Below, in pieces: positions 15,003-44,464 of a DNA stretch of 64,000 nt; positions within the stretch are counted from its first letter, which is position 1; each line of letters begins with the position of its first letter. The stretch is taken from positions 85,622-149,621 of the forward strand of contig NZ_SDJP01000004.1 in assembly GCF_004114995.1 (NCBI RefSeq), in the 5' to 3' direction. Below the pieces are notes generated by a model, which made no database searches, was not told the origin of the DNA, and saw nothing but the letters and a program-made list of their open reading frames with translations. Made by a program: the position numbers and the translations under genes. Source of the DNA: Halorubrum amylolyticum (GTDB lineage Archaea > Halobacteriota > Halobacteria > Halobacteriales > Haloferacaceae).

Positions 15003-15180
15003 GTGTCCACCAGGTACCGCTCTCTCTTCGCACTTGTGGCGATCAGTGCTGTAGTGACAGGTGTCGGTGTCTGGATCGCGTATCAGGTTGAGCTTGTACT
15101 CCTACCGGCTACGACCTCTCGCACCGGAATACTTCTTGTCGGTCATCCGTCTTCAGTTAAGACTCACACCTCGGTTGTGT
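15003..15180 (+). pseudogene. 5' fragment of a membrane protein gene cut by an IS
   Basis: A GTG ORF starting STRYRSLFALVAISAVV encodes one TM helix and about 47 residues. It then runs into the left end of the ISH8-type element at 15144 and stops inside it. It is divergent from the Lon-like gene. No rest of the gene is visible on the other side of the IS, so the 3' part was lost. Confidence 0.6.
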
Positions 15181-16542
15181 AGCGGTAGCGAGTGTCTCTT
15201 GTAAGATTGGTCGTTGCTTGTGGACCTTTTGAGCGTCTTCGATCAGCCGGTCGAGCAGCGGCGGTGGTGAGTAGCCGAGGAACTCACCGAGTTCGTGGAG
15301 CAAAAGCTGGGCGTGCGACCGAAAGGTCGCCGCCCAGCGCTCTGTCGGAAACACAAGCTCATCATCCGCCTGCTCAGTGACTAGATCCAACAGATCGCGG
15401 CTTACAAGCAGCGACAGCAGCGCTGCGTACAATAAGATCCTCACCACGTGTTCGTCACTCGTGTCGAACTCGTCTAGTTCGTACTGTGTCTTCAGCTCCC
15501 GGAACAGCAACTCAACTTCCCACCGACAGCGGTAGATCTCCGCTAAATCCGCCGGAAAGAACTCTTTCCTCGCTAAATTCGTCATGTACAGGTGGTAGTC
15601 GTCGGCGTCCTCGTCGCGGACGCCGACGACGCGAAATCGCTTCGTATCTAGCGACTGCGTCCCATTATACGGCCCTCGTTTGAACTCTACTTCGACTTCT
15701 ACATCGATGTACTTCCGATCGAGATCGTTGAGAACAGCTCGGAGCTGCTTGCCCTCTAAGGGAATGGCGCGGCCGCGCCATTCCCGTAATTCTGCCGTAA
15801 TCACCGGGTTCGCGTTCTGCTTCAGCCGACTCACGAAGTAGCCGTCGTTCTCGTCGATCAGCGCAAACCGGCGGTACTTGAAGTAGGCGAGATCGAACAG
15901 CATGAGGCGATTCTCAAGCCACGGCCCTGTGTTGAACAAGGTGCTGTCGTGTGTTTTCTCGTCAGCAGTATCGATCCGTTCGATCGTCTGCTCTGTGGCA
16001 TTGTGGAGCAGGTGGAGCTTCGCTCCAGCCTGCTCCTCATGGCGGGCTTCGAACTGATCTGAAAGAAACTCATGTAACCGCAACACCGTTCCATCGGCGA
16101 TCATCACGTCTCTAAATCGGTCGATATCAGCGTCAACAGCATCAGGAACAGCGACCTCGTCGAGACCGCGCTCGACGAGGTCGCGGAGGTACTCCGCAAG
16201 CGTCGGCGTCAACCGCTGATAGAACCCGCTGGGCGAGATTGTCTCATCGGCAGTTGAGTTGTAAGATCGTCTGAACCCGGCGAGTGTTCGGCTTTCGCCT
16301 GCGGCGAAACCGAACACAAATGTCCAGACAAAGGCAGGGATCTGAAGCTTGCGGTCACGTTCGACCACGCCGAGTTCCTCGGCGTGCTCTTCGAGAAACT
16401 CAGAGGGAAACAGTGTAGTGAGCCGACGCATAATCCGAGATGAGGAGCCGTTGGGCACAAACTCGGCTTCCTCATTCCTTCCGAAAGATGTCTCGATAAG
16501 CCTCCGCTATCACGCGGTTTCTTGCTTAACTGAAGACGGATG
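15144..16542. mobile_element. ISH8-type insertion sequence, copy 1 (no target duplication)
   Basis: The ends are an 18-bp perfect inverted repeat (CATCCGTCTTCAGTTAAG at 15144-15161, its complement at 16525-16542). Length is 1399 bp, close to the 1402 bp of copy 2 at 56768. It contains one IS4-family transposase. The bases outside the two ends do not match, so no target-site duplication is present, unlike copy 2. A deletion or recombination after insertion is likely. Confidence 0.9.
15157..16458 (-). CDS. IS4-family transposase (ISH8 group)
   Basis: The 433-residue DDE transposase carries the IS4 YREK signature (IYRCRWEVELLFRELKTQ) near residues 310-330 and catalytic-region motifs VMIADGTVLRLHEF and MLFDLAYFKY. 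It is nearly identical to the 434-residue copy at 56852. A GTG at 16458 is the longest start; MRRL a few codons later is an alternative. The gene looks intact. Confidence 0.92.
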   Translation of the reverse strand: MPNGSSSRIMRRLTTLFPSEFLEEHAEELGVVERDRKLQIPAFVWTFVFGFAAGESRTLAGFRRSYNSTADETISPSGFYQRLTPTLAEYLRDLVERGLDEVAVPDAVDADIDRFRDVMIADGTVLRLHEFLSDQFEARHEEQAGAKLHLLHNATEQTIERIDTADEKTHDSTLFNTGPWLENRLMLFDLAYFKYRRFALIDENDGYFVSRLKQNANPVITAELREWRGRAIPLEGKQLRAVLNDLDRKYIDVEVEVEFKRGPYNGTQSLDTKRFRVVGVRDEDADDYHLYMTNLARKEFFPADLAEIYRCRWEVELLFRELKTQYELDEFDTSDEHVVRILLYAALLSLLVSRDLLDLVTEQADDELVFPTERWAATFRSHAQLLLHELGEFLGYSPPPLLDRLIEDAQKVHKQRPILQETLATATQPRCES

Positions 16543-21400: not shown

Positions 21401-22180
21401 TTACATCTGTGAGGTGATCTCGCTGGAGAGTGTTTTGAGATCAGCGTTAGCGATCTGATCAGATGCGATGAGTCGAAGGCGCGGGCGACCGATGTCGATC
21501 GGGACCTTTTCTGTGTCGATCAGGTCGGCGTCCTCGAGTGCTGATTTGGTTCGGGAGTACGTTGCCTTTGAAGCAATGCCGACCTCTTCGCCCCATTTCG
21601 AGATATCGTAGAGAAGGACCTCATTCCGTGCAGCGAGGAGGAGGGTGACCTCAACGATATCGAGGTATCCGGTCGTGTTAGATATCTCGTCAGCGTTGGA
21701 TAGCACTTCGTCGAGGTCGTCTGCGATATCATCACCAATGTCTTCTCGAAGTGTTTGCTTTACCTTCGAGATTGCCGGCGTCCGGAGACGGTAGCTCTCG
21801 GCGTCCTCGAAATGAGACTTGAAAGTGGAGTACAGGGATGAGGAAAGGTCGTGATCCGAAGACGATACACTGTGCCCGCCCATGAGGGGCACAACTATCT
21901 CAGATTCAGTTGCTAAGATGGTATTCTGGACTGGGTCGGTGAGCGTTCGAATGTCAAGTTGGTCCTGCTCAACTAGTTCGGCAATCTTCGACGCGGTGAT
22001 AAAGTTGTAGAGTGCGTCCTTGATCTCGTCGCTTTCCGCGAGTAGGTGAATCTCTGGGTGATCCTCAGCTGCTGTCAACTCTTCTGTGAGAGATGCGATC
22101 TGTCTTGAGTGAGGATTGAGATACAGTACTGGTTCTTCTCCATCAGGAAGCAGCTGAACGCTAGCGTGTTGTTGGCTCAT
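21401..22180 (-). CDS. TbsP/DUF5821-like transcriptional regulator
   Basis: This 259-residue protein resembles the haloarchaeal DUF5821/TbsP type. An N-terminal alpha/beta part (VLYLNPHSRQIASL; IHLLAESDEIKDALYNFITASKIAELV) precedes a C-terminal winged helix (WGEEVGIASKATYSRTKSALEDADLI; IGRPRLRL). TbsP in Haloferax acts with TrmB in glucose-dependent control. ATG 22180 is preferred; the longer upstream reading has no family character. Regulated genes here are not evident. Confidence 0.6.
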   Translation of the reverse strand: MSQQHASVQLLPDGEEPVLYLNPHSRQIASLTEELTAAEDHPEIHLLAESDEIKDALYNFITASKIAELVEQDQLDIRTLTDPVQNTILATESEIVVPLMGGHSVSSSDHDLSSSLYSTFKSHFEDAESYRLRTPAISKVKQTLREDIGDDIADDLDEVLSNADEISNTTGYLDIVEVTLLLAARNEVLLYDISKWGEEVGIASKATYSRTKSALEDADLIDTEKVPIDIGRPRLRLIASDQIANADLKTLSSEITSQM

Positions 22181-22501
22181 ATTTATATAATTTACAGAGG
22201 CGCACTTAGTAGATTTGGAATCTGATAGTTGTTGAGAAAACACAGTCTGTTCAAATGACGAATACAGAAATAGATGGTGCGCTCTTATGTAGTTCATTGT
22301 TGATGGACTGCGGTCTAGCGATTTGCGGTTGCGTGAATTAACTCGAGAGTCCACGGTAGAGGTGTTTAGAAGAGCAATTAGCGCTCCCAACCAGCTAGTG
22401 ATGACAACCACAATTTCCTACCGGAGAACGATCAAAATCATTGAGAATTCCGTCAGAGTCAGATCAGTAGTATTTCAAAACTTGAATACGAAAATTACGA
22501 C

Positions 22502-22783: not shown

Positions 22784-22891
22784 CTGAACTGCCGCACTCG
22801 AGGACAGTTCGATCCCGAAAATTCACAGACACTTCGCGTGAGCTCCACTCAGAACCTCTAGTATCTGGACTATTTGGTCTGAGAGACAGTG

Positions 22892-23239
22892 CTACAGTAT
22901 CGATTCCACTTGGTCTTCCCACCCTTCCTCACTATATACATCATCATCCGGGGCATTTTCGAACAGCCGTACCACAGCATCAATCGATTCGAGTCTGTGT
23001 TTGAGTTCTGTTGCGCGCTCTGGGTCGACGTAGTAAGTGTTCTCAGAATGGCAGATGAGCTGGTGTTCGAGTAGGTTCTCCATCGTTTCGGAGATGTCAC
23101 CCTCCCTCACACTCGTCTGCTCGACGATGTTACGTGAAGTAAAGCTCTCGCCGCTGTTCCGGACGAGAAAGCTGAGGATAGTATGCTCGTCAGTATCTGG
23201 AAGCACTGGAAACGGTGTGTCGTTACTGGATTCACCCAT
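22892..23239 (-). CDS. Small winged-helix regulator
   Basis: The 115-residue acidic protein has a winged helix in its first two thirds (HTILSFLVRNSGESFTSRNIVEQTSVREGDISETMENLLEHQLI) and a C-terminal acidic helix (LKHRLESIDAVVRLFENAPDDD). This is the layout of haloarchaeal MarR-like single-domain regulators. It is a single gene in a low-GC stretch. Target unknown. Confidence 0.65.
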   Translation of the reverse strand: MGESSNDTPFPVLPDTDEHTILSFLVRNSGESFTSRNIVEQTSVREGDISETMENLLEHQLICHSENTYYVDPERATELKHRLESIDAVVRLFENAPDDDVYSEEGWEDQVESIL

Positions 23240-23639
23240 AATTAGTTGCGTTTTACACTAGGGGTTCGCCAACCTTCGACTACTGCTTCGTAGAATGGAC
23301 AGCCACCAAGTCCTCCCGCTTGATTGTTGAGTACCATATCCCGATCGGTTACAGCTTTTAGGGGAATGAGGGGAGCGTGTGACACTGCTCGGAGCTGGAC
23401 CGTCCTCAGCGAAGTCTGCTCCGCCCCTCTGTAGCGATATAACTAGCCATCCTCCTTATACTTCAGGTAGACAAAATGAAAGCAGAGCAATTCGCACTAA
23501 GCGTGTTGGGTTCATTGTGGGCACTATCTGAGCCACCGGTATACCATACTATGGCCCTGTGAGTGGGTGAATGAGTGTCCCACGTAGTCTGGACGGAACA
23601 TGCGAGGATGGGCAAGGCACCCTCAGCGACTTTGCGTCG
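23240..23639. other. Intergenic region, 400 bp
   Basis: No convincing gene. A 28-codon ORF at 23476-23562 (+, MKAEQFALSVLGSLWALSE...) has an AGGT before its ATG and could be a micropeptide, but there is no other support. Confidence 0.25.
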
Positions 23640-23885
23640 CTACAGTTCGTATTTGATGAATTCCCAGGGTCGCCAAAATACGAGAATTACAAACAAGATG
23701 AATACAGTGACCCCAAATATAGCTGCGGCTGGCTGGTATTCGTGTAGAGCGATTATATCTGATATTGAAAGACCTGTATAAACTGCCACAATAACCGCAA
23801 CAGCTTCGATGAGCTGGTTTTTTAGTGTTCTCAGCTCAGGTTGTTTGTTTGCTTCAAGCTCTAGAAATCGCTCGTAAAGAGACAT
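23640..23885 (-). CDS. Small two-helix membrane protein, unknown
   Basis: The 81-residue protein has a charged N-terminal helix (MSLYERFLELEANKQPELR) followed by two TM segments (about 25-43 and 50-70) and a short charged tail. It is the last of three tightly packed genes; its start is 8 bp after the previous stop. No family recognised. The operon is low in GC compared with the adjacent parA genes. Confidence 0.6.
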   Translation of the reverse strand: MSLYERFLELEANKQPELRTLKNQLIEAVAVIVAVYTGLSISDIIALHEYQPAAAIFGVTVFILFVILVFWRPWEFIKYEL

Positions 23886-23893
23886 TTATCGGG

Positions 23894-24637
23894 TTATTTG
23901 AGTTTATACCACGTTGTCGCCGATGCAACTCCTACAACGGCTAGGAAGGCGAGCAGTGCTCCAAATAGGACCCCACCAATTGTTCCCTGCGTATAGAACG
24001 TCCAGAACAGCGCTATGAAGAGTATCGACGTAACCGCAGCTCGCAGGCTAAAAGAGGCAAAGCTCGGGTATGGCGGATTGACACCCGAATTGCTGCCTGC
24101 TGGCTGCCCCATATCTTCAATATACGCCTCCAGCTCCCTAACTCTTCCCGCTATATCTGAGCGGAATGAATTGAATTCTGTTTCGACTTCTGCTACTGTT
24201 CTTTGAACTGTGTCTAAGTTCTCACTCAGTTCTTCTATAGAATTATTGGTATTAGTGACATCTGCCAATCTTCGACTTAGTTCACTCTGTGTCGTCTCTA
24301 TTTGACTCAGTTCTTCTTCTAATTGGTTCACTTGCTCAGTTGTATAGTACAATTGCTGCCGGTTTGCTTGAAGAAGCCTATCTACCGTCTCAAAATCAAG
24401 ATCTATTTGGGCCTCACCGCTCCGTTTTGGCGACCATCTACGCGAGTCTGCTGGATGCTGTCGGCCACTGGTTTGAATTGTAAATTCGTCTTCTGGGGGA
24501 TCTTCCTCAGCCACTTGGGCTTCAGTTATATTATTAGGGCTCCCACGGGTGCTATCTCCTGGAAGCGTATTTTGAAACGGTTTGTTTTCTGTACCATCAG
24601 AGCTGCTGATGAATGAGGGTGGTGCTGGTTCACTCAT
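23894..24637 (-). CDS. Coiled-coil protein with C-terminal membrane anchor, unknown
   Basis: This 247-residue protein has a disordered N-terminal region rich in Ser/Pro/Glu. A long predicted coiled coil follows (about residues 85-165; VNQLEEELSQIETTQSELSR then further heptads), and two TM segments end the protein (about 190-240). The topology puts the coiled coil in the cytosol. The ATG at 24637 overlaps the upstream gene by 8 bp, so the two are translationally linked. No family recognised. Confidence 0.65.
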   Translation of the reverse strand: MSEPAPPSFISSSDGTENKPFQNTLPGDSTRGSPNNITEAQVAEEDPPEDEFTIQTSGRQHPADSRRWSPKRSGEAQIDLDFETVDRLLQANRQQLYYTTEQVNQLEEELSQIETTQSELSRRLADVTNTNNSIEELSENLDTVQRTVAEVETEFNSFRSDIAGRVRELEAYIEDMGQPAGSNSGVNPPYPSFASFSLRAAVTSILFIALFWTFYTQGTIGGVLFGALLAFLAVVGVASATTWYKLK

Positions 24638-25475
24638 TGTCTGGGTCTCTTTCTTCGGCACCTTCCAATAACTCCTCAACAATCTCTTCTCTGTCCTCCA
24701 TTTCTATGTCCATTCCTGACTGCTTAACCGCTTCTTCAATAGCAATCATCTGCCCTCGCACTTGTTTGAAATATTCAGGGTTGATCACCTTGTCTGGTTG
24801 TTCGAATGCGATCTCTATCGCATCCATCATCTCGCTCAAAAAGTGTTCAATTAAAACCCAATCTGAGTGAGCGGATGAGTCAATATTGACGTCACGCTGT
24901 CTATCTATCGTGAAGGTGTGTGTATGTTTTAATGTGCCCTCTTTTATGACTCGCTCAGTTTGGATGAAACTCCACCAGTCTTTCCCTTGTGTATTATGAA
25001 AGTTCATACGCTGCATATCCGGACCGTAGTCGAGAATTGAATCAATTAGGAAATGCTGTATCCCAGATGACCCATCGTATTCCGCGAGTTCCTCAACGAA
25101 CTCGGCGTTCATCAAAATCAGACTGTGAATATAGGCTATGATCGCACGATTAAGTGATTCCCAATCGTCTTCACCGTAGTCGCTGGTCTCCTCGGTTCCG
25201 GTGATTGCGATTACTATATTGGTGTGTAGTCTCCCAGGCACATTCTGCATTTCATAATTTTCAAGCGCTGATTCTACCGCTTTCTCTATCTGCTTATCTC
25301 GCTGTATGAACAGCTCTTGATGCTTCACCAGAGCTTCTAGATTTTCAGCGGGATCGGAGGTTTCCAACGGTGTATATGATAGGTTGCGTTCGTCCGTCTC
25401 ATTGACCATGGTTGGCGGTATATTCGAGGATAGGTCAATCTTTGGACGTTTGTAATCAAGCGTCTGACGCACCAT
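24630..25475 (-). CDS. Soluble protein of unknown function, first gene of operon
   Basis: This 281-residue, mostly alpha-helical acidic protein has no signal, no TM segment and no motif I recognise. Notable stretches are a Trp-rich middle (GKDWWSFIQTERV) and a highly acidic C-terminal tail. The ATG at 25475 has a GGAGAG element 11 nt upstream; the ATG at 25409 lacks one. The gene is divergent from parA across only 45 bp, so their promoters overlap. With the two membrane proteins it may form a membrane-bound complex. Confidence 0.6.
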   Translation of the reverse strand: MVRQTLDYKRPKIDLSSNIPPTMVNETDERNLSYTPLETSDPAENLEALVKHQELFIQRDKQIEKAVESALENYEMQNVPGRLHTNIVIAITGTEETSDYGEDDWESLNRAIIAYIHSLILMNAEFVEELAEYDGSSGIQHFLIDSILDYGPDMQRMNFHNTQGKDWWSFIQTERVIKEGTLKHTHTFTIDRQRDVNIDSSAHSDWVLIEHFLSEMMDAIEIAFEQPDKVINPEYFKQVRGQMIAIEEAVKQSGMDIEMEDREEIVEELLEGAEERDPDNE

Positions 25476-25498: not shown

Positions 25499-26440
25499 CT
25501 CTTTGAGGACAAAGACATCTATGAGGATCGGAGTCACCAACCAGAAAGGAGGTGCCGGGAAGACGACCACGACACTGAATGTTGCCGGCGCGCTGAACCA
25601 GCGCGGCCACGACGTGCTCGTCATCGACCTCGACCCGCAAGGCCACGCGACCGAGGGGCTCGGTTTCGAGGATCTCTATGACGATCCCGACCGCGACTCG
25701 CTGTTCGACGTCCTCCCAGATATCGACCGGATGGACGACCTGGAGCAACTAGTCGTCGAGCACCAGGAGGTCGACGTCGTCCCGAGCCACGAGCGCATGA
25801 TCAACGCCGAAGATGAGCTCGCGAACGTGATGAAGCGCGAGGAGCGACTCAACATGCTCCTCGACGAGAGCGGCGCCAACCAGCGTTGGGACTTCGTTCT
25901 CGTCGACTGCCCGCCGAACCTCGGCGTGCTCACCGACAACGCGATCGTCGCGACGGGGAACGTCCTGATCCCCGCGCAGGCGAAGTCGACCAGCATCCGC
26001 GCGATCGAACTCCTGTTCAAGCAGCTCCGGAGCATCGAATCCGCGTTCGGCGCCGTCGACGAGGTCGCACTCGTCGCGAACGAGGTCGGCGTCGATGGCG
26101 AGGCCGAGGAGATGATGGAGTGGTTCAAAGATGTCTTTGAGGACAGAGAGAATTGCGAGGTCTTTGAGATAAGAAAACGAGTCGCTCTCCAGCGTGCGTG
26201 GAACGCCGGTGTGTCCATTTTCGAGCACGACGAGGATAGCGACATGGAGTCGGTCTACTTGGAGGTCGCCGAGCATCTGGAGGACTACCCTCATGACTGA
26301 CGGTGACGGTAAGCGGGACCGGAACCCCTGGGATGATCGCTATGACCGCGACGATGACGACGATGATCGCGACGATGCCGCCCTCGAGGGCGCGTCGTCA
26401 ACCTCGGAAACATCGGATATATCAAAGACCTCAAAGAGAG
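25499..26440. repeat. Scattered TCTTTGAG motifs in the parA locus
   Basis: Related sites occur at 25499-25508 (CTCTTTGAGG, before the parA ATG), 26133-26142 (GTCTTTGAGG) and 26159-26169 (GGTCTTTGAGA, inside parA). Two inverted sites lie at 26421-26431 and 26429-26440, inside the next gene. The coding stretches that hold them are AT-rich in otherwise GC-rich genes. They may be ParB-like binding or centromere sites. Confidence 0.4.
25521..26300 (+). CDS. parA: ParA-family partition ATPase
   Basis: The 259-residue protein has the deviant Walker A QKGGAGKTTT near residues 8-17, a Walker A' region IDLDPQGHATEGLG, and Walker B VLVDCPPNLG. It is a ParA/Soj-type ATPase for plasmid or chromosome segregation. 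I chose ATG 25521 over a TTG at 25503 because the Walker A then has the usual N-terminal spacing. The last 50 codons contain an AT-rich patch with two TCTTTGAG motifs. The next gene overlaps its end by 8 bp. Confidence 0.92.
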   Translation: MRIGVTNQKGGAGKTTTTLNVAGALNQRGHDVLVIDLDPQGHATEGLGFEDLYDDPDRDSLFDVLPDIDRMDDLEQLVVEHQEVDVVPSHERMINAEDELANVMKREERLNMLLDESGANQRWDFVLVDCPPNLGVLTDNAIVATGNVLIPAQAKSTSIRAIELLFKQLRSIESAFGAVDEVALVANEVGVDGEAEEMMEWFKDVFEDRENCEVFEIRKRVALQRAWNAGVSIFEHDEDSDMESVYLEVAEHLEDYPHD

Positions 26441-26703
26441 AAAAGACAACAGAGATGGCTAAGAGCGAAAAGACCGCAGAGAGCGAAGAGAGCAGCGGAA
26501 CTGTCCGGGAGCGGAAGAACGTGAACATGTACTTGCCAGAGGGTCTCGTCGACGACCTCCAGTTACGGTACTCGGAGCTGAACGTTGAGTGGCGGCGCCG
26601 TCACGGCGAGGACATGCCGAAGAACGAGGAGTTCTACCCAGCAGCGATTCGGTCGGCGCTGGGAGAGTCGTCGATCGAGGAAGAGCTCGGCCTCGAGGAG
26701 TAG
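26293..26703 (+). CDS. ParA-linked small protein, putative centromere-binding partner
   Basis: The 136-residue protein has an acidic, disordered first half with runs of Asp/Arg (DRDDDDDDRDD) and Lys/Thr/Ser. A folded C-terminal half (NVNMYLPEGLVDDLQLRYSELN) reads like a ribbon-helix-helix strand plus helices. Its ATG overlaps the parA stop (ATGACTGA). Small DNA-binding partners encoded after parA are usual in archaeal plasmids, so a ParB-like role is inferred. Confidence 0.6.
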   Translation: MTDGDGKRDRNPWDDRYDRDDDDDDRDDAALEGASSTSETSDISKTSKREKTTEMAKSEKTAESEESSGTVRERKNVNMYLPEGLVDDLQLRYSELNVEWRRRHGEDMPKNEEFYPAAIRSALGESSIEEELGLEE

Positions 26704-27095: not shown

Positions 27096-27110
27096 TAAGC
27101 AGTGACAACT

Positions 27111-27599
27111 ATGAACTGCCCGGACTGCGGGAACGAGCGAACACGCGTCATCGATACAGGGACCAGTGCTGACGGAACCTCCGTCCGACGGCGCCGCGAG
27201 TGTCAACGCTGTTCGTTCCGCTTTACGACCTACGAACGTCCGGAGTGGGAGTCCCTCCAAGTGAAAAAACGCGACGGAACCATCGAATCGTTCGACCGAC
27301 AGAAACTCCGCGCAGGGATCGAGCGAGCCGTTGAGAAGCGGGATGTAACCGAGACAACAGTGACTGCTCTCGTCGACGATATCGAGAGCGAACTGCAAGG
27401 TCGAGAGGCACGTATCGTCTCTTCGAGTCTCATCGGCGAACTCGTCTCTGAGAACCTCCGCACGCTCGATAAGGTAGCCTACATTCGATTTGTCTCCGTT
27501 TACAAAGCATTCTCTGAGCCGCAGGAATTCCTGAGAGAACTTGATGCAGTCTTGGATGCAGAACTTGATGACTTCGAAGCCTCGAACAGCTCACTATGA
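27111..27599 (+). CDS. nrdR: NrdR transcriptional repressor
   Basis: The 162-residue protein has the N-terminal zinc ribbon (MNCPDCGNERTRVIDTG; RRECQRCSFRFTTYER) and the ATP-cone (VKKRDGTIESFDRQKLRAGIERAVEKR; AYIRFVSVYKAF) of NrdR. NrdR senses ATP/dATP and represses ribonucleotide reductase genes. ATG 27111 puts the first Cys at residue 3; a GTG at 27102 is also in frame. The stop overlaps the next ORF as ATGA, so it is in one operon with nrdB and nrdA. Confidence 0.94.
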   Translation: MNCPDCGNERTRVIDTGTSADGTSVRRRRECQRCSFRFTTYERPEWESLQVKKRDGTIESFDRQKLRAGIERAVEKRDVTETTVTALVDDIESELQGREARIVSSSLIGELVSENLRTLDKVAYIRFVSVYKAFSEPQEFLRELDAVLDAELDDFEASNSSL

Positions 27600-27736
27600 C
27601 ACAAACATACGCAGATCAAACGAATGTTCGGTCAATTCTTGACCGGGCGAGCATGGCCCACGTCCAGACGTACAGAGAACGACGGAAACAGAAACCAACC
27701 AACAGAGGACGATTCCTCCGGAGTACGTGCCAATGA
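27596..27736 (+). CDS. 46-residue basic protein between nrdR and nrdB
   Basis: The ATG overlaps the nrdR stop (ATGA) and the stop overlaps the nrdB ATG (ATGA), so ribosomes could pass through all three. The peptide (MTQTYADQTNVRSILDRASM ... RRKQKPTNRGRFLRSTCQ) is basic, unusual for this organism. The C-terminal Arg/Lys cluster could bind nucleic acid or nucleotides. It may instead be just a translational bridge. No family recognised. Confidence 0.55.
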   Translation: MTQTYADQTNVRSILDRASMAHVQTYRERRKQKPTNRGRFLRSTCQ

Positions 27737-28743
27737 CTGAAAACAAAACCACAGGCGGAGATCCGGAGACCGACATCTTCTCCGAACGAACGCAGCTCAA
27801 ACCGTACGAGTACCCCGACGTCCTCGAGTACAAAGACGCGATACGGAACAGCTACTGGGTTCACACGGAGTTCAACTTCTCGGGAGACGTGCAGGACTTC
27901 AAGGTCAACACGACTCCGGCCGAAAAGACCGTCATCAAGCGGACGATGCTGGCCATCGCGCAGATCGAGGTCCAGGTCAAGACCTTCTGGGCAGAAATCT
28001 ACGACGAGATGCCCAAAGCGGAGGTTGGGAACGTCGGCATGACCTTCGCCGAGAGCGAGGTCAGACACATGGACGCGTACAGCCACCTCCTCGACATCCT
28101 GGGGATCACGGAGGACTTCGAGGAGGTGACCGACGTCCCCGCAATCGAGGAGCGGATCGACTACCTCGACGAGTACCTCGAGAAGAGCGAGAGCGACGAC
28201 ACACAGGAGTACGTGATGAGTCTCCTGCTGTTCTCCACGTTCGTCGAGCACGTCTCGCTGTTCTCGCAGTTCCTCATCATGACGAGCTTCGACAAACACG
28301 AAAAGAAGTTCAAGGGAATCGCGAACGCCGTCGAAGCGACCAGCAAGGAGGAGCAGATTCACGGACTGTTCGGTGTCGAACTCGTAGAGATGATTCGCGA
28401 GGAGAATCCGGATCTCTTCGACGAGGACTTCGAAGAAGAGGTCCAAGCGGCCTGTCAGCAGGCGTTTGAGGCAGAGATGAAGATACTGGACTGGATCTTC
28501 GGTGAGGGCGAACTGGAGTTTCTTCCCCGGGCGCACGTCGACGCGTTCCTGCGGGACCGGTTCAACCAGAGCCTCGAGAACGTCGGTGTCGAGCCGATAT
28601 TCGACCCGGACGATGACCTGCTCGAGGAGACACGGTGGTTCGACGAGGACATCATGATGACGAAGGACAACGACTTCTTCAGCAAGCGGTCGACCACGTA
28701 CAACAAACACGCACAGAGCATCACCGCGGAGGACATGTTCTAA
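27733..28743 (+). CDS. nrdB: Ribonucleotide reductase small (beta) subunit
   Basis: The 336-residue protein has the metal-ligand pattern of R2 proteins: IEVQVKTFW (first Glu), SEVRHMDAY (Glu and His), TFVEHVSLF and EEQIHGLFG. It holds the di-metal/radical cofactor of class I reductase. The C-terminal segment WFDEDIMMTKDNDFF and the SITAEDMF tail would bind the alpha subunit. ATG 27733 is coupled to the preceding small ORF; nrdA starts 2 bp after the stop. Confidence 0.93.
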   Translation: MTENKTTGGDPETDIFSERTQLKPYEYPDVLEYKDAIRNSYWVHTEFNFSGDVQDFKVNTTPAEKTVIKRTMLAIAQIEVQVKTFWAEIYDEMPKAEVGNVGMTFAESEVRHMDAYSHLLDILGITEDFEEVTDVPAIEERIDYLDEYLEKSESDDTQEYVMSLLLFSTFVEHVSLFSQFLIMTSFDKHEKKFKGIANAVEATSKEEQIHGLFGVELVEMIREENPDLFDEDFEEEVQAACQQAFEAEMKILDWIFGEGELEFLPRAHVDAFLRDRFNQSLENVGVEPIFDPDDDLLEETRWFDEDIMMTKDNDFFSKRSTTYNKHAQSITAEDMF

Positions 28744-28745
28744 CG

Positions 28746-30440
28746 ATGGCACAAACAGAACCAGCACTCGACGAGGTCAACCAGCAGCACGAGGAACCGT
28801 TCTACTGGCTGAACGAGGACAGCCGAGCGTTCCTCGACGAGGGGTACCTGATCGAGGGTGTCACGGCCGAGGAGCGTGTCAGGGAGATCGCGGAGCGGGC
28901 CGAGGAGATCCTGGACGACGACGGCTTCGCGGACAAGTTCTACGACTACATGAGTCGGGGCTTCTACAGCCTCGCGAGTCCGGTGTGGTCGAACTTCGGT
29001 CTGGACCGAGGCCTGCCCATCAGCTGCTTCGGTAGCTACATGGAGGACAACATGGAGAGCATCCTCTACACGCAGGCCGAAGTAGGCGAGATGACCAAGC
29101 TGGGCGGCGGGACCAGCGGGTACTTCGGCGAGATCCGGCCCCGAGGCAGCCCGATCACGAACAACGGCAAGAGCAACGGAAGCTACAGCTTCACCGAGCT
29201 GTTCGACACGATCATCAACGTCGTCAGCCAGGGCGAGACGCGGCGCGGCCAGTTCGCGGGGTACATAGACGTTGAACACGACGACCTGGACGAGTGGCTC
29301 AACATCAAGACCGAGGGCGACCCCGTACAGGACATCTACTACGGCGTTATCATCGGTGACGACTGGTTCCGGGCGATGGTCGACGGCGACGAGGAGAAGC
29401 GAGAGACGTGGGCAGAAATCATTGAGGCGCGGATCAACATCGGTGTCCCGTACATCATTTTCCGGGACAACATGAACGAAGGTAAGCCACAGGTCTACAA
29501 GGACAAGGGCTACGAAATCAATGCCTCCAACCTGTGTACCGAGATTGCACTGCCAGCCACGCCAGATGAGAGTTTCGTCTGTTGTCTCTCATCGATGAAT
29601 GCGCTCCACTATGACGAGTGGAAGGATACCGACGCAGTGGAAACGCTGACGCGGTTCCTTGATACCGTCATGGAGGAGTTTATTCAAGAGGCGGAGGGGA
29701 CGCAGTTCATGGATCGCCCGGTGCGGTTTGCGAAACGGCACAGGGCGATCGGCATCGGCGTCCTCGGCTGGCACAGCTACCTCCAGAGCGAGATGATTCC
29801 GTTCGACAGCATGGAGGCGATGGAGAAAAACGAGGCAATCTTCCGCACCATCAAGGAGCGAAGTTACGAGGAGAGTCGTCGGCTCGCCGACGAGTTCGGC
29901 GAGCCGGAGGTGCTCGAGGGCTACGGTCGCCGGAACGCGACGACGATGAGCGTGGCCCCGACGAAATCCAGCAGTGTCATTTTGGGGCAGGTCAGTCCGA
30001 GCATCGAACCGCTGAAATCGAATTACTTCGTCCGCGACGGTGCGAAGCTGAAATCGACGCAGAAGAACCGGTTCCTCGAGGCGATACTGAAACAGCGAGG
30101 CAGAGACGAACGCGAGGTCTGGGACAGCATCGCACAGAACGACGGGAGCGTGCAACACCTCGACTGCCTGACCGACGAGGAGAAGGAGGTGTTCAAGACC
30201 TTCGCCGAGATCCCACAGATGGCGATCATCAACCAGGCAGCGCAGCGGCAGAAACACATCGATCAGGCACAGAGTCTGAACGTCTCGATCGATCCGAGCG
30301 AAGTGAGCGTCAAGGAGATAAACCAGCTCTACATCGAGGCTTGGAAGAAAGGGGTGAAGAGTCTCTACTACCAACACAGCGTGAACGCCGCACAGAAGTT
30401 CAGCCGAGACATCCTCGAATGCAAGGCCTGTGAGAGCTGA
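28746..30440 (+). CDS. nrdA: Ribonucleotide reductase large (alpha) subunit
   Basis: The 564-residue alpha subunit is compact. It starts close to the catalytic barrel and has no N-terminal ATP cone, so overall activity control by dATP would be absent. Redox cysteines are visible at Cys94 (PISCFGSY), in NLCTEI (radical Cys) and SFVCCLSS. The radical-transfer tyrosines are in SLYYQHS and the C-terminal CKAC shuttle pair ends the protein. It converts ribonucleoside diphosphates to deoxy forms with NrdB. Confidence 0.93.
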   Translation: MAQTEPALDEVNQQHEEPFYWLNEDSRAFLDEGYLIEGVTAEERVREIAERAEEILDDDGFADKFYDYMSRGFYSLASPVWSNFGLDRGLPISCFGSYMEDNMESILYTQAEVGEMTKLGGGTSGYFGEIRPRGSPITNNGKSNGSYSFTELFDTIINVVSQGETRRGQFAGYIDVEHDDLDEWLNIKTEGDPVQDIYYGVIIGDDWFRAMVDGDEEKRETWAEIIEARINIGVPYIIFRDNMNEGKPQVYKDKGYEINASNLCTEIALPATPDESFVCCLSSMNALHYDEWKDTDAVETLTRFLDTVMEEFIQEAEGTQFMDRPVRFAKRHRAIGIGVLGWHSYLQSEMIPFDSMEAMEKNEAIFRTIKERSYEESRRLADEFGEPEVLEGYGRRNATTMSVAPTKSSSVILGQVSPSIEPLKSNYFVRDGAKLKSTQKNRFLEAILKQRGRDEREVWDSIAQNDGSVQHLDCLTDEEKEVFKTFAEIPQMAIINQAAQRQKHIDQAQSLNVSIDPSEVSVKEINQLYIEAWKKGVKSLYYQHSVNAAQKFSRDILECKACES

Positions 30441-30502
30441 TCCCCCATCGGCCGGTATGATAGAGTGGTCCATGTAAACTACGCCACCCTACCCCTCGGC
30501 GT

Positions 30503-30870
30503 ATGCGTGCCTCGGTCCTTGACGGCTTAGGCGTGGATCTCATCAAACAGATTTGGTCGGAGAATCCCAACGTGTGGACCGACGAGTTCGGCGACGAAGT
30601 AGTCGACCTGATTACCGAAACGGTCGAGTTAGAGAGAATTACACCTACGAGGCGTGTCCTGACGAAATACTTGGCATGAGTGCCGAGCAGTTCGCCGAGG
30701 ACGTCGAACACATCACCGACCGGCGCCTTGGACAACTCAACTTACCGGACCAGTACGGGACTGACAATCCGTTCCCGTGGATGTCCGAGTAAGTCAACCT
30801 GAACAAGGAAGAGAATCCCTTCGAGACGCAGGTGACCGAATACCAGAGCGGGGGTAGCCTCAATTGGTAA
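30503..30870 (+). pseudogene. Remnant of a second nrdB (C-terminal part)
   Basis: Reading LGVDLIKQIWSENPNVWTDE, then a frameshift near 30635, then NYTYEACPDEILGMSAEQF and LNLPDQYGTDNPFPWMSE, an in-frame TAA at 30790, and TQVTEYQSGGSLNW. These are the C-terminal motifs of the E. coli-like class Ia beta subunit (YGTENPFPWMSE ... TEYQ.GGSL). They differ from the tail of the intact nrdB here. One frameshift, one nonsense codon and the missing N-terminus show decay. Confidence 0.85.
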
Positions 30871-30983: not shown

Positions 30984-32660
30984 ATGTCATCAACAGAGCA
31001 ATCACGACAGGATGTCTTTCGGACTATCGCACAGTTACAGCACGTCGAGTGGCCTGCATACGGGTCGACACCACTATACGACCGGAGTTCAGTATCCGCT
31101 CTCCAATCGGACATTCGAACCGTCGCTAGAGTCTGGTTCGATCACGACGCCCACGAGTCGATTGCGGAGTTCATATGTCAGTATCCGCTGAAATACGTCG
31201 ATTTCGAACCGCATGACGAGTATTTTGGCTCTACGCGGTATCAGATGCCGCAGTTGGTGCGGTTGTTCTTGCTCAAAGAGATTCACGGCTGGGACCACGA
31301 AACGGCACTTTTGACGTTCCTCCAACAGCGACCGGCACTTCGACGAGACCTCGGTTTTGAGCGTATGCCGAATCAATCGACGGTATGGCGCAGTTGGCAC
31401 GAGCGGTTCTCTGTCGACCTACGCGAGGCCGTCCAAACGGCAGCTCGAACGATCTTGATCAAGGCCCAGAATGCGGGTATCGAGATTCCACGAGAACTAG
31501 AGCGGAAGCTCAGCTATCGGAACGATAATGAAGACGACTCAGTACCGGACGATCGGACCGTTCTGGAGCGGACAAAGAAAATCACCGACCACGTCAGTCG
31601 CATCATCTTCCCAGCATTCTCGCTGGATCGTAGAGACGGCTGTGAGATCCACGAGAACGCATACTGGAACTTACAAACGTATCTCGGACTTCGCGAGCGG
31701 CTGGCTGCGAACGAAGGAGCCCGCAGTTACATTCATGAGTCAACGCGGGATCGAACACCACTCGGACACGCCCACCGCAGCCACATTCGCGATCTCTCTA
31801 TCGAGCAGACTCGCGAGATGTACCGACAGGCGATCCGGCACCTCATCGACGAGATTGCAGAGACAGAGGAGTTCTTCCGCGCAGGCATCGTCGCAATCGA
31901 TATCACCGAAGCCGATCCTTTCACCGGCGACAGGACCGGGCACGAGGACGAGATCATCGGGACAAAAGAGAACACCGAGGAGTACGCCTACCAATGGGCG
32001 ACGGTCCAGTTGGTTGGCAATGCCGTCCCAATCGTACTGGACGCGCGCCCCGTCCGAAAGGGGGAGACACGACTGGAAATCGTTGAGGATCTGCTTGACT
32101 CCGCCGAAGAGCTCGTTCACGTCGATAACGTCTTGATGGATCGGGAGTTCGATAGTCAGCACGTTCTGGAGATGATCAGTCAGCGTGGACTCTCGTACGT
32201 CGTTCCGAAGCGGATGCAGACCAGCGAGAAGGCTCAGGCGAAGCGATTGCTCCAGCGTGACCAGGACCGATATGAAACCGATCGCAAGCTCCATCTCGGC
32301 AAGAACGAATGGCACGAGACGACGCTGATCTACCGGCGGAAAGAGGACTTCGAGCACGACGATCACCGGCAGTACTCGGTGTTTATGACGAATCGAGGGA
32401 GCGGGCACCTCACAGAGTACGACTACCGGTGGGAGATCGAGAGTGGGTACAAGTCGATCAAGCGGTTCATGGCCGCCACGACGTCGAAGCACTTCGGGTT
32501 GCGGTTCTTCTACTTCGCGTTCGCCTGTTTGTTGTACTCGATTTGGCGAGCAGTGGATTTGCTTGTGCAGGTTGAGTTGACTGGCGAATACGAACACTCG
32601 CCAATCGTGACCGCAGATAACACGCTCACGCTGTTGAAGAAGGAGACTGGAATTGGGTAG
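30984..32660 (+). CDS. DDE transposase, IS4 superfamily (558 residues)
   Basis: The protein has the DDE pattern in VAIDITEADPF, NVLMDREFDS and the IS4-type Y-2-R-3-E-6-K motif (YDYRWEIESGYKSIK, near residue 480). The N-terminal 150 residues hold a DNA-binding region (STVWRSWHERF). The reading frame is intact. The C-terminal 110 residues are nearly identical to the remnant at 39494 and similar to the fragment at 49415. Confidence 0.9.
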   Translation: MSSTEQSRQDVFRTIAQLQHVEWPAYGSTPLYDRSSVSALQSDIRTVARVWFDHDAHESIAEFICQYPLKYVDFEPHDEYFGSTRYQMPQLVRLFLLKEIHGWDHETALLTFLQQRPALRRDLGFERMPNQSTVWRSWHERFSVDLREAVQTAARTILIKAQNAGIEIPRELERKLSYRNDNEDDSVPDDRTVLERTKKITDHVSRIIFPAFSLDRRDGCEIHENAYWNLQTYLGLRERLAANEGARSYIHESTRDRTPLGHAHRSHIRDLSIEQTREMYRQAIRHLIDEIAETEEFFRAGIVAIDITEADPFTGDRTGHEDEIIGTKENTEEYAYQWATVQLVGNAVPIVLDARPVRKGETRLEIVEDLLDSAEELVHVDNVLMDREFDSQHVLEMISQRGLSYVVPKRMQTSEKAQAKRLLQRDQDRYETDRKLHLGKNEWHETTLIYRRKEDFEHDDHRQYSVFMTNRGSGHLTEYDYRWEIESGYKSIKRFMAATTSKHFGLRFFYFAFACLLYSIWRAVDLLVQVELTGEYEHSPIVTADNTLTLLKKETGIG

Positions 32661-37641: not shown

Positions 37642-39090
37642 TTAATCGTCTGCGTGTGATTCTGCAGGAGTAAATGCGACACCATTGATTTCGACTTCAT
37701 CAGGAACGCGACTCGTGTCGTGGGTTCCAACCGGGGGGAGGTTCACTTCCGCAGATGACGAAGCGTCAAGATCGGTCTCATCATCAATCGAAGACATCTC
37801 ACCGTCGGCATCCCGTGCGTCTTGGTCGATCCGCATCGAGCAAAACTCGACACCACACATCGAGCAGAAACGAGCTTCCTTGTAGTTGTCGCCAGGCAAT
37901 GTCTGATCGTGGTATTCTTGGGCACGCTCGGGATCCAGTGCGAGTTCGAATTGCCTGCGCCAATCGAACTCGTAGCGCGCTTCGGAAAGTGCATCATCCC
38001 AGTCACGTGCACCCGGAAGATCATTCGCGACGTCAGCAGCGTGGGCTGCAATCCGATAGGCTGCGAGACCGTCTCTCACGTCCTCTTCGTCAGGGAGACC
38101 GAGATGTTCCTTCGGTGTAACATAACACAACATCGCCGCTCCTGCACGAGCAGCCTCGGTCGCCCCAATCGCGCTTGTGATATGATCGTAGCCCGGCGCG
38201 ACATCGGTGACTAGCGGGCCGAGGACGTAGAATGGTGCACCGTCACAGACGTCTTGTTGGCGTTCGACGTTATCGGCGATCTCGTCTATTGGGACGTGTC
38301 CGGGGCCTTCAACCATGACTTGAACGCCGTGGTCCCATGCGGTCCGAGTCAGTTCGCCGAGTGTGTCGAGTTCGGCGAACTGGGCTTCGTCGCTCGCATC
38401 TGCGAGACAACCGGGACGGAGGCCATCGCCCAATGAGAACGTCACGTCGTGTTCCGCGAAGATTTCGCAGATTTCCTCGAATTTCGTGTACAGCGGGTTC
38501 TGCATCCCATTCTCTTCGATCCACTGGGATAATATAGACCCCCCTCGCGAGACGATTCCAGTCTTTCGGCCGTCTGTCAGTGGAAGATGTTCCATCAGCA
38601 CGCCTGCATGGATAGTCATATAATCGACGCCCTGCCTGGCTTGCTTCTCGATAATGTCGAGCAGCAGTTCGTGGGTGATCTCGGCGGGACTGTCAACACG
38701 CTTGACAGCCTCGTAAATCGGGACGGTTCCGACCGGCACGGGTGAATGCTCGATATTAGCGCTACGGATGTCATCAAGATCCTCGCCGGTTGAAAGGTCC
38801 ATCACAGTGTCGGCACCATAGTGGACCGCAGTGTGGAGTTTCTGGAGTTCGCCTTCGATACCACTAGTCGTGTCGCTATTGCCAATGTTCGCGTTGACCT
38901 TTGTAGAAAATTCCCGTCCGATAATCATCGGGTCAAGCGATTCGTGCGCATGATTGTTCGGAATGATGGCTTGTCCGTCGGCAACCTGCTGTCGAACAAA
39001 GTCCGGATCACAGTTTTCGCGCTCGGCAACTCGTTTCATAGCAGATGTGATTTCGCCTGCTTTGGCCTGCTGAAGCTGAGTCTCTGCCAT
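37642..39090 (-). CDS. thiC: Phosphomethylpyrimidine synthase
   Basis: This 482-residue enzyme has ThiC motifs ([48 protein letters not shown]) and the C-terminal CxxCxxxxC cluster ([11 protein letters not shown]). It makes HMP-P for thiamine from AIR with radical SAM chemistry. Start ATG 39090 ([15 protein letters not shown]) agrees with the family. The C-terminal 50 residues are an acidic extension. It is a single gene with no riboswitch visible upstream. Confidence 0.95.
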
Positions 39091-39101
39091 CAATAACCAA
39101 G

Positions 39102-39121
39102 TTATACTACTAAGTAATATA
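39102..39121 (-). promoter_or_regulatory. thiC promoter/operator candidate
   Basis: TTATACTACTAAGTAATATA is AT-rich and partly palindromic (TACT ... AGTA). It contains a TATA-like stretch at about the right distance for initiation near the thiC ATG. A regulator such as the haloarchaeal ThiR could bind here; this is inference. Confidence 0.4.
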
Positions 39122-39493
39122 GCCATGGGAAGGACGACTTGTATTCGCCACTCTGTAGCGGAGTGAGATTTGAGTAAAACTACTTTCTGCGAGCGTGTCA
39201 TAGAAAAGTTCACGCACAGTTTCTTTCGGGGTAGTAACTAGCGAATCTCCTGCTAAACTCTCCCGCACACCGACCGTTTGCTGCAGTCGCTCGCGTTGCT
39301 CGCTCCTTGGCAAAAGCTCGACCAAAAGCCTGCGAGCCTCCCGATGGTCGGCTCTTGGCCTCGCCTTCGGCGAGAGAACCGGCGACCTTCCGGGTCCTCC
39401 GGACCGCTCGGTCGCCGGACAGCTGCGGTAACTAGATCCTCTATACTGATCAGTTAGACGGATTCTTGGCCGGGTCGTGGCCAGTATCTCGTA
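39122..39493. other. Intergenic region with GC-rich hairpins
   Basis: It contains CTCGCC-TTC-GGCGAG (39360-39374) and a 9-bp stem CCGGCGACC/GGTCGCCGG (39379-39387 with 39410-39418) that encloses smaller CCGG-type repeats. A minus-strand open frame (39110-39325) has no recognisable domain. The end of this stretch is the left side of the deleted transposon. Confidence 0.4.
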
Positions 39494-39967
39494 GTGGTTG
39501 CGACCTGGGAGTCACAGCGCACGGTCTTTCGACGAATCGCTCAACAGCCGTACGTCCAGTGGCCAGTCTATGATTCGACGCCGTTGTACGATCAAACCTC
39601 ACTCGCCGGATTAGAATCGGATATTCAAATCGTCTCGGAAGTCTGGTTTACTCACCACGAACACGACGACCACGGGCAATATTCGGTGTTCATGACAAAC
39701 CGAGGAAGTGGCCTTCTCACTGAGTATGGCTATCGTTGGGAGATCGAGAGCGGCTACAAATCGATCAAACGGTTCATGGCCGCTACAACGTCGAAGCACT
39801 TCGGCCTGCGGTTCTTCTACTTCGCGTTCGCCTGTTTGCTGTACTCGATCTGGCGAGCGGTCGATCTACTCGTGCAGGTCGAGTTGAACGGTGAGTATGA
39901 ACACTCGCCGATCGTGACGGCTGATAACACGCTGACGCTGGTGAAGAAAGAAACCGGAATCGGATAG
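39494..39967 (+). pseudogene. Internally deleted IS4-type transposase
   Basis: The 157-residue frame is open but joins the first about 52 residues of the 558-residue transposase directly to its last about 100 (VWFTHHEHDDHGQYSVF). The DNA-binding region and the two catalytic aspartates are lost; the YREK segment (YGYRWEIESGYKSIK) remains. At the joint the intact copy has CACGACG on both sides of the lost segment, so a microhomology deletion is likely. A TTG or GTG would be the start; no function as transposase is possible. Confidence 0.85.
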
Positions 39968-42859: not shown

Positions 42860-44290
42860 TTACCCCAGCGAGCCCTCCATTTCGAGTTCGACGAGCCGGT
42901 TGAGCTCGACGGCGTACTCGATGGGCAGCTCCTCCGTGATGGGCTCGATGAACCCTGAGACGATCATCTGCTTGGCGTCGTCGTCGTCCAGCCCGCGCGA
43001 CTGGAGGTAGAAGATGTCCTCGTCGCCGATCTTGCCCACGGTCGCCTCGTGGGCGACGTCGACCTTCGACTCGTTGATCTCCATGTACGGCATCGTGTCC
43101 GACGTCGACTCGTTGTCGAACATCAGCGCGTCGCACTCCACGGCGGTCGAGGAGTTCTCCGCGCCGTCCGCGATGTGGACGAGTCCGCGGTAGTTGGTGC
43201 GGCCGCCGTCCTTCGCGATCGACTTCGACTCGACGGTGGACTTGGTGTCCGGCGCGTTGTGGTACACCTTCGCGCCGGTGTCGATGTCCTGGCCCTCGCC
43301 CGCGAAGGCGATGGTGATGTGGTTGTCGGAGGCGCCGCGGCCCTTCAGGATCGTCGACGGGTACAGCATCGTCGCCTTCGACCCCATCGAGCCGGAGATC
43401 CACTCCATGCGCCCGCCCTTCTCGGCGATGGCGCGCTTCGTGTTGAGGTTGTACGTGTTCTTCGACCAGTTCTGGACGGTCGAGTACTGGACGTGGGCGT
43501 CCTCGTCGACGAACACTTCCACGCCGCCGCAGTGGAGGTTGAACTTCGAGTACTTCGGCGCGGAACAGCCCTCGATGTAGTGAACTTCGGAGCCCTCCTC
43601 GGCGATGATGAGCGTGTGCTCGAACTGGCCCATCCCCTCGGAGTTCATCCGGAAGTACGCCTGGACCGGCATGTCGACAGTAGTGTTTTCGGGGATGTAG
43701 ACGAACGAGCCGCCGGACCAGATGGCGCCGTGAAGCGCCGCGAACTTGTTGTCGCTCGGGGGGACGCACTTCGTCATGAAGTGCTCGCGGACGAGCTCTT
43801 CGTGCTCTTGGACCGCCTCGTCCATGTTACAGAAGATGACGCCCTTCTCCTCCCAGCGCTCCTGCATGTTCTGGTAGACGACCTCCGATTCGTACTGCGC
43901 GCCGACGCCGGAGAGTGCGTTCTTCTCGGCCTCGGGGATGCCCAGCTTGTCGAAGGTGTCCTTGATGTCGTCCGGGAGCTCCGTCCAGTCGTCGACGCCG
44001 GCACGAACGTCGACGTCCGGGCGGATGTAAGGAACGATCTCGTCGACATCGACCTCGCTCAAATCCGGCTGGCCGGGCCAGTCGGTCGGCATCGGCATCT
44101 CTTGAAACTGTTCGAGCGCGCGCAGTCGGCGCTCCAGCATCCACTCCGGTTCGTCTTTGTCCTCCGAGATGACGCGGACCGTCTCCTCGGTGAGGCCCTT
44201 CTCGCTTTTGAAAGCAGACTTCTCCTCCTTTTTGAACTCGAAGCGGGCCTCGGTGTTCGTCTCCTTGAGGTCGTCTTGTTTTGAACTCAT
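42860..44290 (-). CDS. sufB: Fe-S cluster scaffold protein SufB
   Basis: This 476-residue protein has SufB motifs throughout (WMLERRLRALEQFQEMPMP; GSFVYIPENTTVDMPVQAYFRMN; HYIEGCSAPKYSKFNLHCGGVEVF; RGLDDDDAKQMIVSGFIEPI). SufB builds Fe-S clusters with SufC and SufD. Neither partner is encoded in this window. GC content is clearly higher than in flanking genes. A TATA-like CTTATATT is about 30 nt upstream. This may be a second copy or a displaced gene. Confidence 0.93.
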   Translation of the reverse strand: MSSKQDDLKETNTEARFEFKKEEKSAFKSEKGLTEETVRVISEDKDEPEWMLERRLRALEQFQEMPMPTDWPGQPDLSEVDVDEIVPYIRPDVDVRAGVDDWTELPDDIKDTFDKLGIPEAEKNALSGVGAQYESEVVYQNMQERWEEKGVIFCNMDEAVQEHEELVREHFMTKCVPPSDNKFAALHGAIWSGGSFVYIPENTTVDMPVQAYFRMNSEGMGQFEHTLIIAEEGSEVHYIEGCSAPKYSKFNLHCGGVEVFVDEDAHVQYSTVQNWSKNTYNLNTKRAIAEKGGRMEWISGSMGSKATMLYPSTILKGRGASDNHITIAFAGEGQDIDTGAKVYHNAPDTKSTVESKSIAKDGGRTNYRGLVHIADGAENSSTAVECDALMFDNESTSDTMPYMEINESKVDVAHEATVGKIGDEDIFYLQSRGLDDDDAKQMIVSGFIEPITEELPIEYAVELNRLVELEMEGSLG

Positions 44291-44464
44291 CAAAGTATTC
44301 TTCAGAGACTACGAATATAAGTGTGGTGCGCTGGAACACCCTTTAGTAACTTATACTGGTTTCTTCAACGAAAATGAATAACCTTCCGTAGTTTAATTTG
44401 GTTTCTCTACCTAGTAGAATTTAATATGTACAGAGAGGGCTATACCGTACAAACAGAATCATCG

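Follow-up and report, generated by a model that had tools for sequence, protein, structure and literature searches.

The 64,000-nucleotide stretch of Halorubrum amylolyticum DNA analysed here (the window) belongs to a contig of 175 kb (C34) and contains, divergently oriented to a parA gene, a compact operon of three genes designated A, B and C. All three open reading frames are present on the minus strand, co-oriented and tightly packed, with an 8-bp overlap between A and B and an 8-bp gap between B and C (Table 1). Because homologous operons in genomes G227 and G039 show the same A/B overlap, they are not chance reading frames, and the overlapping or nearly touching genes described in an initial annotation of this DNA are real.

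That annotation gave A 281 residues and a 45-bp divergent region shared with parA. The open reading frame exists, and residues of A are numbered here on its 281-residue form; however, the true start is probably Met23, since the G227 homologue begins at the equivalent methionine and the upstream ATG touches the palindrome CGTCTGACG. The protein would then be shortened and the divergent gap would measure 111 bp. In the G177 homologue, some similarity extends upstream of Met23, which is compatible with the longer form. The two C-terminal transmembrane helices described for B were supported by hydrophobic peaks at residues 193-211 and 220-238, but the coiled coil is confined to the middle of the protein, and the first ~75 residues are of low complexity and probably disordered. 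The many weak library matches of B, including those to LmuB, DndD and Jet in PADLOC, were generic coiled-coil matches and were set aside. Protein C is a small protein with two hydrophobic peaks (residues 29-47 and 53-71), as annotated.

The GC content of A, B and C was 44.7, 47.0 and 41.5%, respectively, versus 61.5% for parA, and at third codon positions 49, 40 and 39% versus 83%. The three low-GC genes were acquired together, in agreement with the initial annotation.

Table 1. Positions in the window of the A-B-C genes and associated features.
Feature	Position	Strand	Description and basis
Gene A, COMMD/CT584-like	24630..25409	-	259 residues from the probable start (Met23); AlphaFold2 models, Foldseek against the PDB, PDB-sequence profiles
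Gene A, long form	24630-25475	-	281 residues, counted from the ATG at 25475
Gene A, parts			Helical N-domain, then three-stranded COMM-like sheet, then C-terminal helices; AlphaFold2 models
Codon of A Trp168	24972..24974	-	Alignment of 12 homologues and model secondary structure
Gene B	23894..24637	-	247 residues; low-complexity N-terminus, coiled coil ~75-180, two C-terminal transmembrane segments
Gene C	23640..23885	-	81 residues, two transmembrane segments; candidate membrane toxin/effector
parA (context)	25521..26300	+	Divergent; Pfam AAA_31, 1.5e-40
parB-like gene after parA (context)	26293..26703	+	31% identity over 78 residues to the G227 counterpart
Variable slot between PadR-type regulator and parA	22813..25458	.	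A-B-C here; ~0.9 kb MazE/AbrB-PIN (VapBC-like) pair in sister loci
Palindrome CGTCTGACG in the parA promoter region	25461..25469	.	Present upstream of parA in most sister loci (without A) and in G227

Fold and distant relatives of protein A

No family model in Pfam, PADLOC, NCBIfam or PHROGs claimed protein A, consistent with the initial annotation, which recognised no family for it. AlphaFold2 models of A (predicted local distance difference test, pLDDT, 67; predicted template modelling score, pTM, 0.52) and of its G329 homologue, the better of the two (pLDDT 82, pTM 0.61), both consisted of a helical N-domain followed by three strands and then C-terminal helices; the two models were derived from overlapping alignments and are not fully independent. 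The N-terminal, HN-like domain was all-helical, with helices at residues 42-163 in A and 9-128 in the G329 homologue. The COMM-like domain of the A model comprised strands at 168-178, 181-190 and 194-201, followed by a helix at 202-223, and the order was the same in the G329 model. When the models were compared with the PDB using Foldseek, the top 13 matches of A were Cpn0803/CT584 and human COMMD proteins, and the top 14 of the G329 model were all CT584, Cpn0803 or COMMD (best E value 1.3e-5, afterwards 0.04), in alignments that covered 160-210 columns and included both domains. A fold search of a viral structure library gave nothing significant.

The relationship was also detected by sequence alone, using profiles built from archaeal proteins only and searched against PDB sequences. 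Cpn0803 and CT584 ranked first with profiles of 8 (E 0.003), 10 (1e-6), 11 (5e-6 to 7e-6) and 12 sequences (3e-6 to 6e-6), as well as with a profile of the C-terminal (COMM) half (4e-6 to 5e-6, bias at most 0.5 bits). The next PDB match behind the chlamydial pair lay at 0.16-0.54 for the profiles of at least 10 sequences and the C-terminal half. A COMM-half profile aimed at drawing COMMD sequences retrieved chlamydial proteins only, and there was no significant sequence match between A and COMMD, similarity being detected to CT584/Cpn0803 only. The Pfam models COMM_domain (PF07258) and CT_584-like (PF17435) exceeded the cut-off in none of the 11 genomes tested, with one homologue reaching a sub-threshold E value of 0.12 for the latter. 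As both models stay below cut-off, A is only distantly related to CT584/COMMD and lies outside the curated families.

The sole invariant residue in the alignment of 12 A homologues was Trp168, which in the model sits where strand 1 of the COMM-like domain begins, ~11 residues ahead of the strand 1-2 turn. In COMMD proteins, one tryptophan is the only strictly conserved residue (W157 in COMMD5, W139 in COMMD7), and it stacks on a serine, numbered nine higher, in the strand 1-2 loop of the neighbouring subunit (W157/S166, W139/S148) (PMC10187114). Trp168 would be the positional equivalent of this residue.

Among known proteins, CT584/Cpn0803 was the best structural match, sharing the HN-like helical and COMM-like domains and, over the C-terminal half, sequence similarity (E ~3e-6). 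In contrast to A, it is reported from chlamydia only; it is hexameric, and the residue aligned to the invariant tryptophan of A is not a tryptophan; it is the clearest COMMD look-alike known, with unknown function (PMC6089597). The COMMD proteins of the Commander/CCC complex resemble A in domain order and topology, as judged by Foldseek, and in their single conserved COMM-domain tryptophan; they differ in being reported as eukaryote-only, with ten paralogues that serve endosomal recycling, whereas A is a single gene. COMM-mediated dimers and rings or hexamers are established for CT584 and the COMMD proteins (PMC6089597, PMC10187114). By analogy, A would dimerise via its COMM-like domain and probably assemble into larger rings.

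Partner genes of the A family

Profile searches identified 11 archaeal homologues of A, giving 12 loci with the window. Six were found among 391 class-level genomes, and searches of the genus, the family, the phylum and another class added G393, G584, G693, G848 and G232. The window's own branch (window, G177 and G227) shows 42-46% identity, while the remaining homologues are ~10-25% identical to A. Short, weak matches in the phylum (G060, G441, G465 and G629) and in G745, G746, G748 and G752 were left out of the count, and inspection of the G060 stretch revealed no A-like open reading frame. Pattern scans of genome and viral contigs with A alone returned nothing, and alignment-based scans returned three known loci in genomes and zero in viruses. 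The GC content of A was below that of its surroundings in all 12 loci, and some homologues adjoin integrases, prophage tail genes or a type IIG restriction enzyme.

At every locus A comes first, and the genes behind it are exchanged. A lack of conserved gene order would have counted against the initial annotation, but the order is conserved in other genomes. At the window, G227 and G039, A is followed by a protein with a linker, a coiled-coil or helical region and one or more C-terminal transmembrane segments, and then by a small protein with two transmembrane segments; the G177 locus is cut by a contig end. The B homologue of G227 is 28% identical to that of the window (E 3e-6), and the second gene of G039 has a similar layout. 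Clear sequence similarity to C was not found in the small two-transmembrane proteins that take its place in G227 and G039.

Five loci (G329; G299, Haloarcula pellucida; G156, Halomarina rubra; G693; G848) instead carry A, a nuclease of 330-357 residues and a protein of 135-169 residues. The nuclease matched Cap4 (0.006), HamA (2e-5) and LmuA (1e-8, 6e-10), that is, weakly to clearly, and its residues E43, D48 and K67 are invariant. These operons consist only of A, the nuclease and the small protein, without an SMC-like LmuB or a CD-NTase, unlike Lamassu and CBASS Cap4 systems, with which they share the Cap4/LmuA-like nuclease; no nuclease is present in the window module. Lamassu systems typically exchange their effectors (PMC10586767). 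The three-gene nuclease operon is a probable undescribed nuclease defence system. Two examples outside the window's class were noted, one flanked on one side by prophage tail genes and on the other by a type IIG-like restriction enzyme (L061, 8493-10705) and one near an AAA ATPase (L071, 6496-8837).

At two further loci the third gene encodes a recognisable toxin. In G232, A is followed by a 226-residue protein that ends in DUF7387 (1.6e-20) and by a HicA toxin (4e-8), and the DUF7387 protein would be HicB-like, judging from its position ahead of HicA. In G393, a 137-residue protein with a weak match to DUF7387 (0.016) precedes a PIN RNase (1.8e-11). The plan of A, connector and toxin is thus present in both genomes, and this is the main reason why C is read as the effector in the window. 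In G584 (L060, 7694-9238), A precedes a coiled-coil/winged-helix protein and two proteins of 62-63 residues of unassigned kind; the winged-helix protein showed a weak EAP30/Vps36 match (1.6e-4), below cut-off. The novelty that the initial annotation saw in A holds, but both the kinship with CT584/COMMD and the pairing with several other effectors had been missed. A tree of the A proteins did not separate the deep order (an earlier 11-row tree had suggested more), and a number of partner exchanges is therefore not claimed.

The slot beside parA

ParA orthologues with 91-94% identity to that of the window were found at eight loci in seven other genomes of the genus, and none of these seven genomes contained A. 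Similarity to the window restarts at 25459-25462 in all eight sister loci. Upstream of parA, five of the eight (L041, L042, L043, L044 and L046) carry a MazE/AbrB and PIN pair, which in four of the five lies directly between the PadR gene and parA; the other three have unrelated sequence there. A-B-C and a VapBC-like pair are thus swapped at this position, and the slot resembles an exchange site for stability modules. Beside the PadR gene that borders it, a TbsP-type transcriptional regulator (21401-22411; Pfam 2e-43) was observed, with homologues at that place in L041 and L042.

In G227, A-B-C is also divergent from parA, but its ParA is only 42% identical to that of the window. Either the adjacency is old or it came about with another parA, and the two cases may reflect a preferred plasmid slot. 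Most A loci lack a nearby parA, including those of G039, G393 and the nuclease type within the stretches read. The palindrome CGTCTGACG belongs to parA and not to A, as sister loci and G227 retain it ahead of parA. It occurs as a single copy in the window and, being kept in G227 beside so divergent a ParA, is a candidate ParA/ParB operator or centromere-like site.

A candidate conflict module

We consider it reasonably likely that A-B-C is a mobile tripartite toxin-antitoxin-like conflict module, serving antiviral abortive infection and/or plasmid addiction, with a COMMD-like regulator and no role as a partition component. A defence or related conflict role, also raised by the initial annotation, is the best reading. 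The conserved core A, a soluble COMMD/CT584-like protein, would form COMM-mediated dimers and perhaps rings. B would be the connector, binding A through its flexible N-terminus and coiled coil and anchored by its two transmembrane helices, and C would be a small two-transmembrane effector that the A-B assembly keeps inactive in the resting state. Once A detects an infection, or when it disappears or is displaced, B and C might assemble and disrupt membrane integrity or potential, whereupon growth would stop; the trigger could be a virus or loss of the element.

Such a plan has known counterparts. In TAC systems, three genes likewise encode a toxin, a toxin-binding partner and a third regulator, and in CmdTAC the third component, CmdC, senses a phage capsid protein and the toxin is released (PMC11618068). 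Their regulators are SecB-like chaperones, however, whereas in the window the A gene comes first and the presumed effector is a membrane protein; a SecB-like identity for A was rejected, as no SecB model matched and A is HN+COMM-like. VapBC and HicBA are linked to the module by the VapBC-like pair in the same parA slot and by the HicA, with its DUF7387 protein, and PIN genes behind A in G232 and G393, but these are two-gene systems without A that use soluble RNase toxins, whereas B and C are membrane proteins.

Several observations weigh against this interpretation. No toxin family was recognisable for C in Pfam, PADLOC, NCBIfam or PHROGs, and an antitoxin domain is lacking in the window's B, whose role is assigned by analogy with G232 and, weakly, G393. 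The A family is rare and patchy (~2% of the haloarchaeal genomes sampled), and homologues were absent from plasmid, phage and viral collections (tblastn on plasmids and phages; pattern scans of viral contigs). No obvious defence island surrounds the window locus. Whole-model template modelling scores (TM-scores) were modest, at most 0.56, perhaps due to differing domain orientations.

It is rather unlikely that the operon is a pure plasmid-addiction (post-segregational killing) module, with the same parts triggered by loss of a labile A or B. Its slot, which holds a VapBC-like pair in sister loci, and the HicA and PIN toxins at related loci are consistent with such a role; several homologues, however, are on large contigs or in prophages or integrated elements, and the variant with a Cap4/LmuA-like nuclease is of a kind typical for defence. 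The patchy distribution, the low GC content, the mobile contexts and the replacement of the partner by a nuclease, PIN or HicA make a non-toxic housekeeping membrane scaffold or trafficking-like complex improbable. In that complex, A would act as COMMD proteins do with coiled-coil partners, and B, with its flexible N-terminus and coiled coil, recalls CCDC22 and CCDC93, whose unstructured linkers wind through the COMMD ring (PMC10187114); this likeness is a lead only. It is more doubtful still that A, a helical protein with a small sheet, has no relationship to COMMD/CT584 and resembles them only superficially. The Pfam models below cut-off in eleven genomes, the pTM of the A model and the TM-scores would fit this, but sequence-only profiles placed the two chlamydial proteins first, four to five orders of magnitude ahead of the next match, with low composition bias, the two models agree and the invariant tryptophan matches. 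Least credible is the link to partition suggested in the initial annotation, with A-B-C as an accessory membrane platform anchoring the ParA/ParB complex: the module is divergent to parA-parB in the window and G227, but the eight sister loci with nearly identical ParA lack A and fill the slot with VapBC-like or unrelated genes, and a similar parA was missing from the stretches read at G039, G393 and the nuclease-type loci.

Beyond the proposed conflict module in the window, the balance tips slightly towards archaea encoding an undescribed HN+COMM family, kin of COMMD beyond the chlamydial proteins, that is the common regulator of tripartite immune or toxin modules with interchangeable effectors (membrane pair, Cap4/LmuA-like nuclease, PIN or HicA). 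In the human Commander complex, ten COMMD subunits form a ring, and the proteins are reported to lack sequence homologues in both Archaea and Bacteria (PMC10187114). If the proposal is true, the COMMD family, whose origin has been placed on the eukaryotic stem, has older prokaryotic relatives in biological-conflict systems. An archaeal family with this architecture would provide simple single-gene models for COMM assembly and make the origin of COMMD testable. It also suggests a new regulator class for archaeal toxin and defence modules, one missed by current defence-system libraries; PADLOC has no model for A. The tripartite toxin/effector plan is already known, while regulator A is new: the literature search returned no account of COMM proteins in archaea or of a module of the A-B-C type, with preprints and most subscription papers outside its scope.

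In the wider window, an NrdR-like regulator and ribonucleotide reductase genes lie directly downstream of parA-parB (27102-30792). Several transposase-like genes frame the region (15157-16458, 56852-58156, 30984-32660 and 39494-39967), among them two very similar copies and a truncated one. The parA-bearing contig also encodes ThiC (37642-39213; Pfam 1.9e-187) and a SufB/D protein (42860-44293; 2.9e-83), which suggests a chromid-like replicon.
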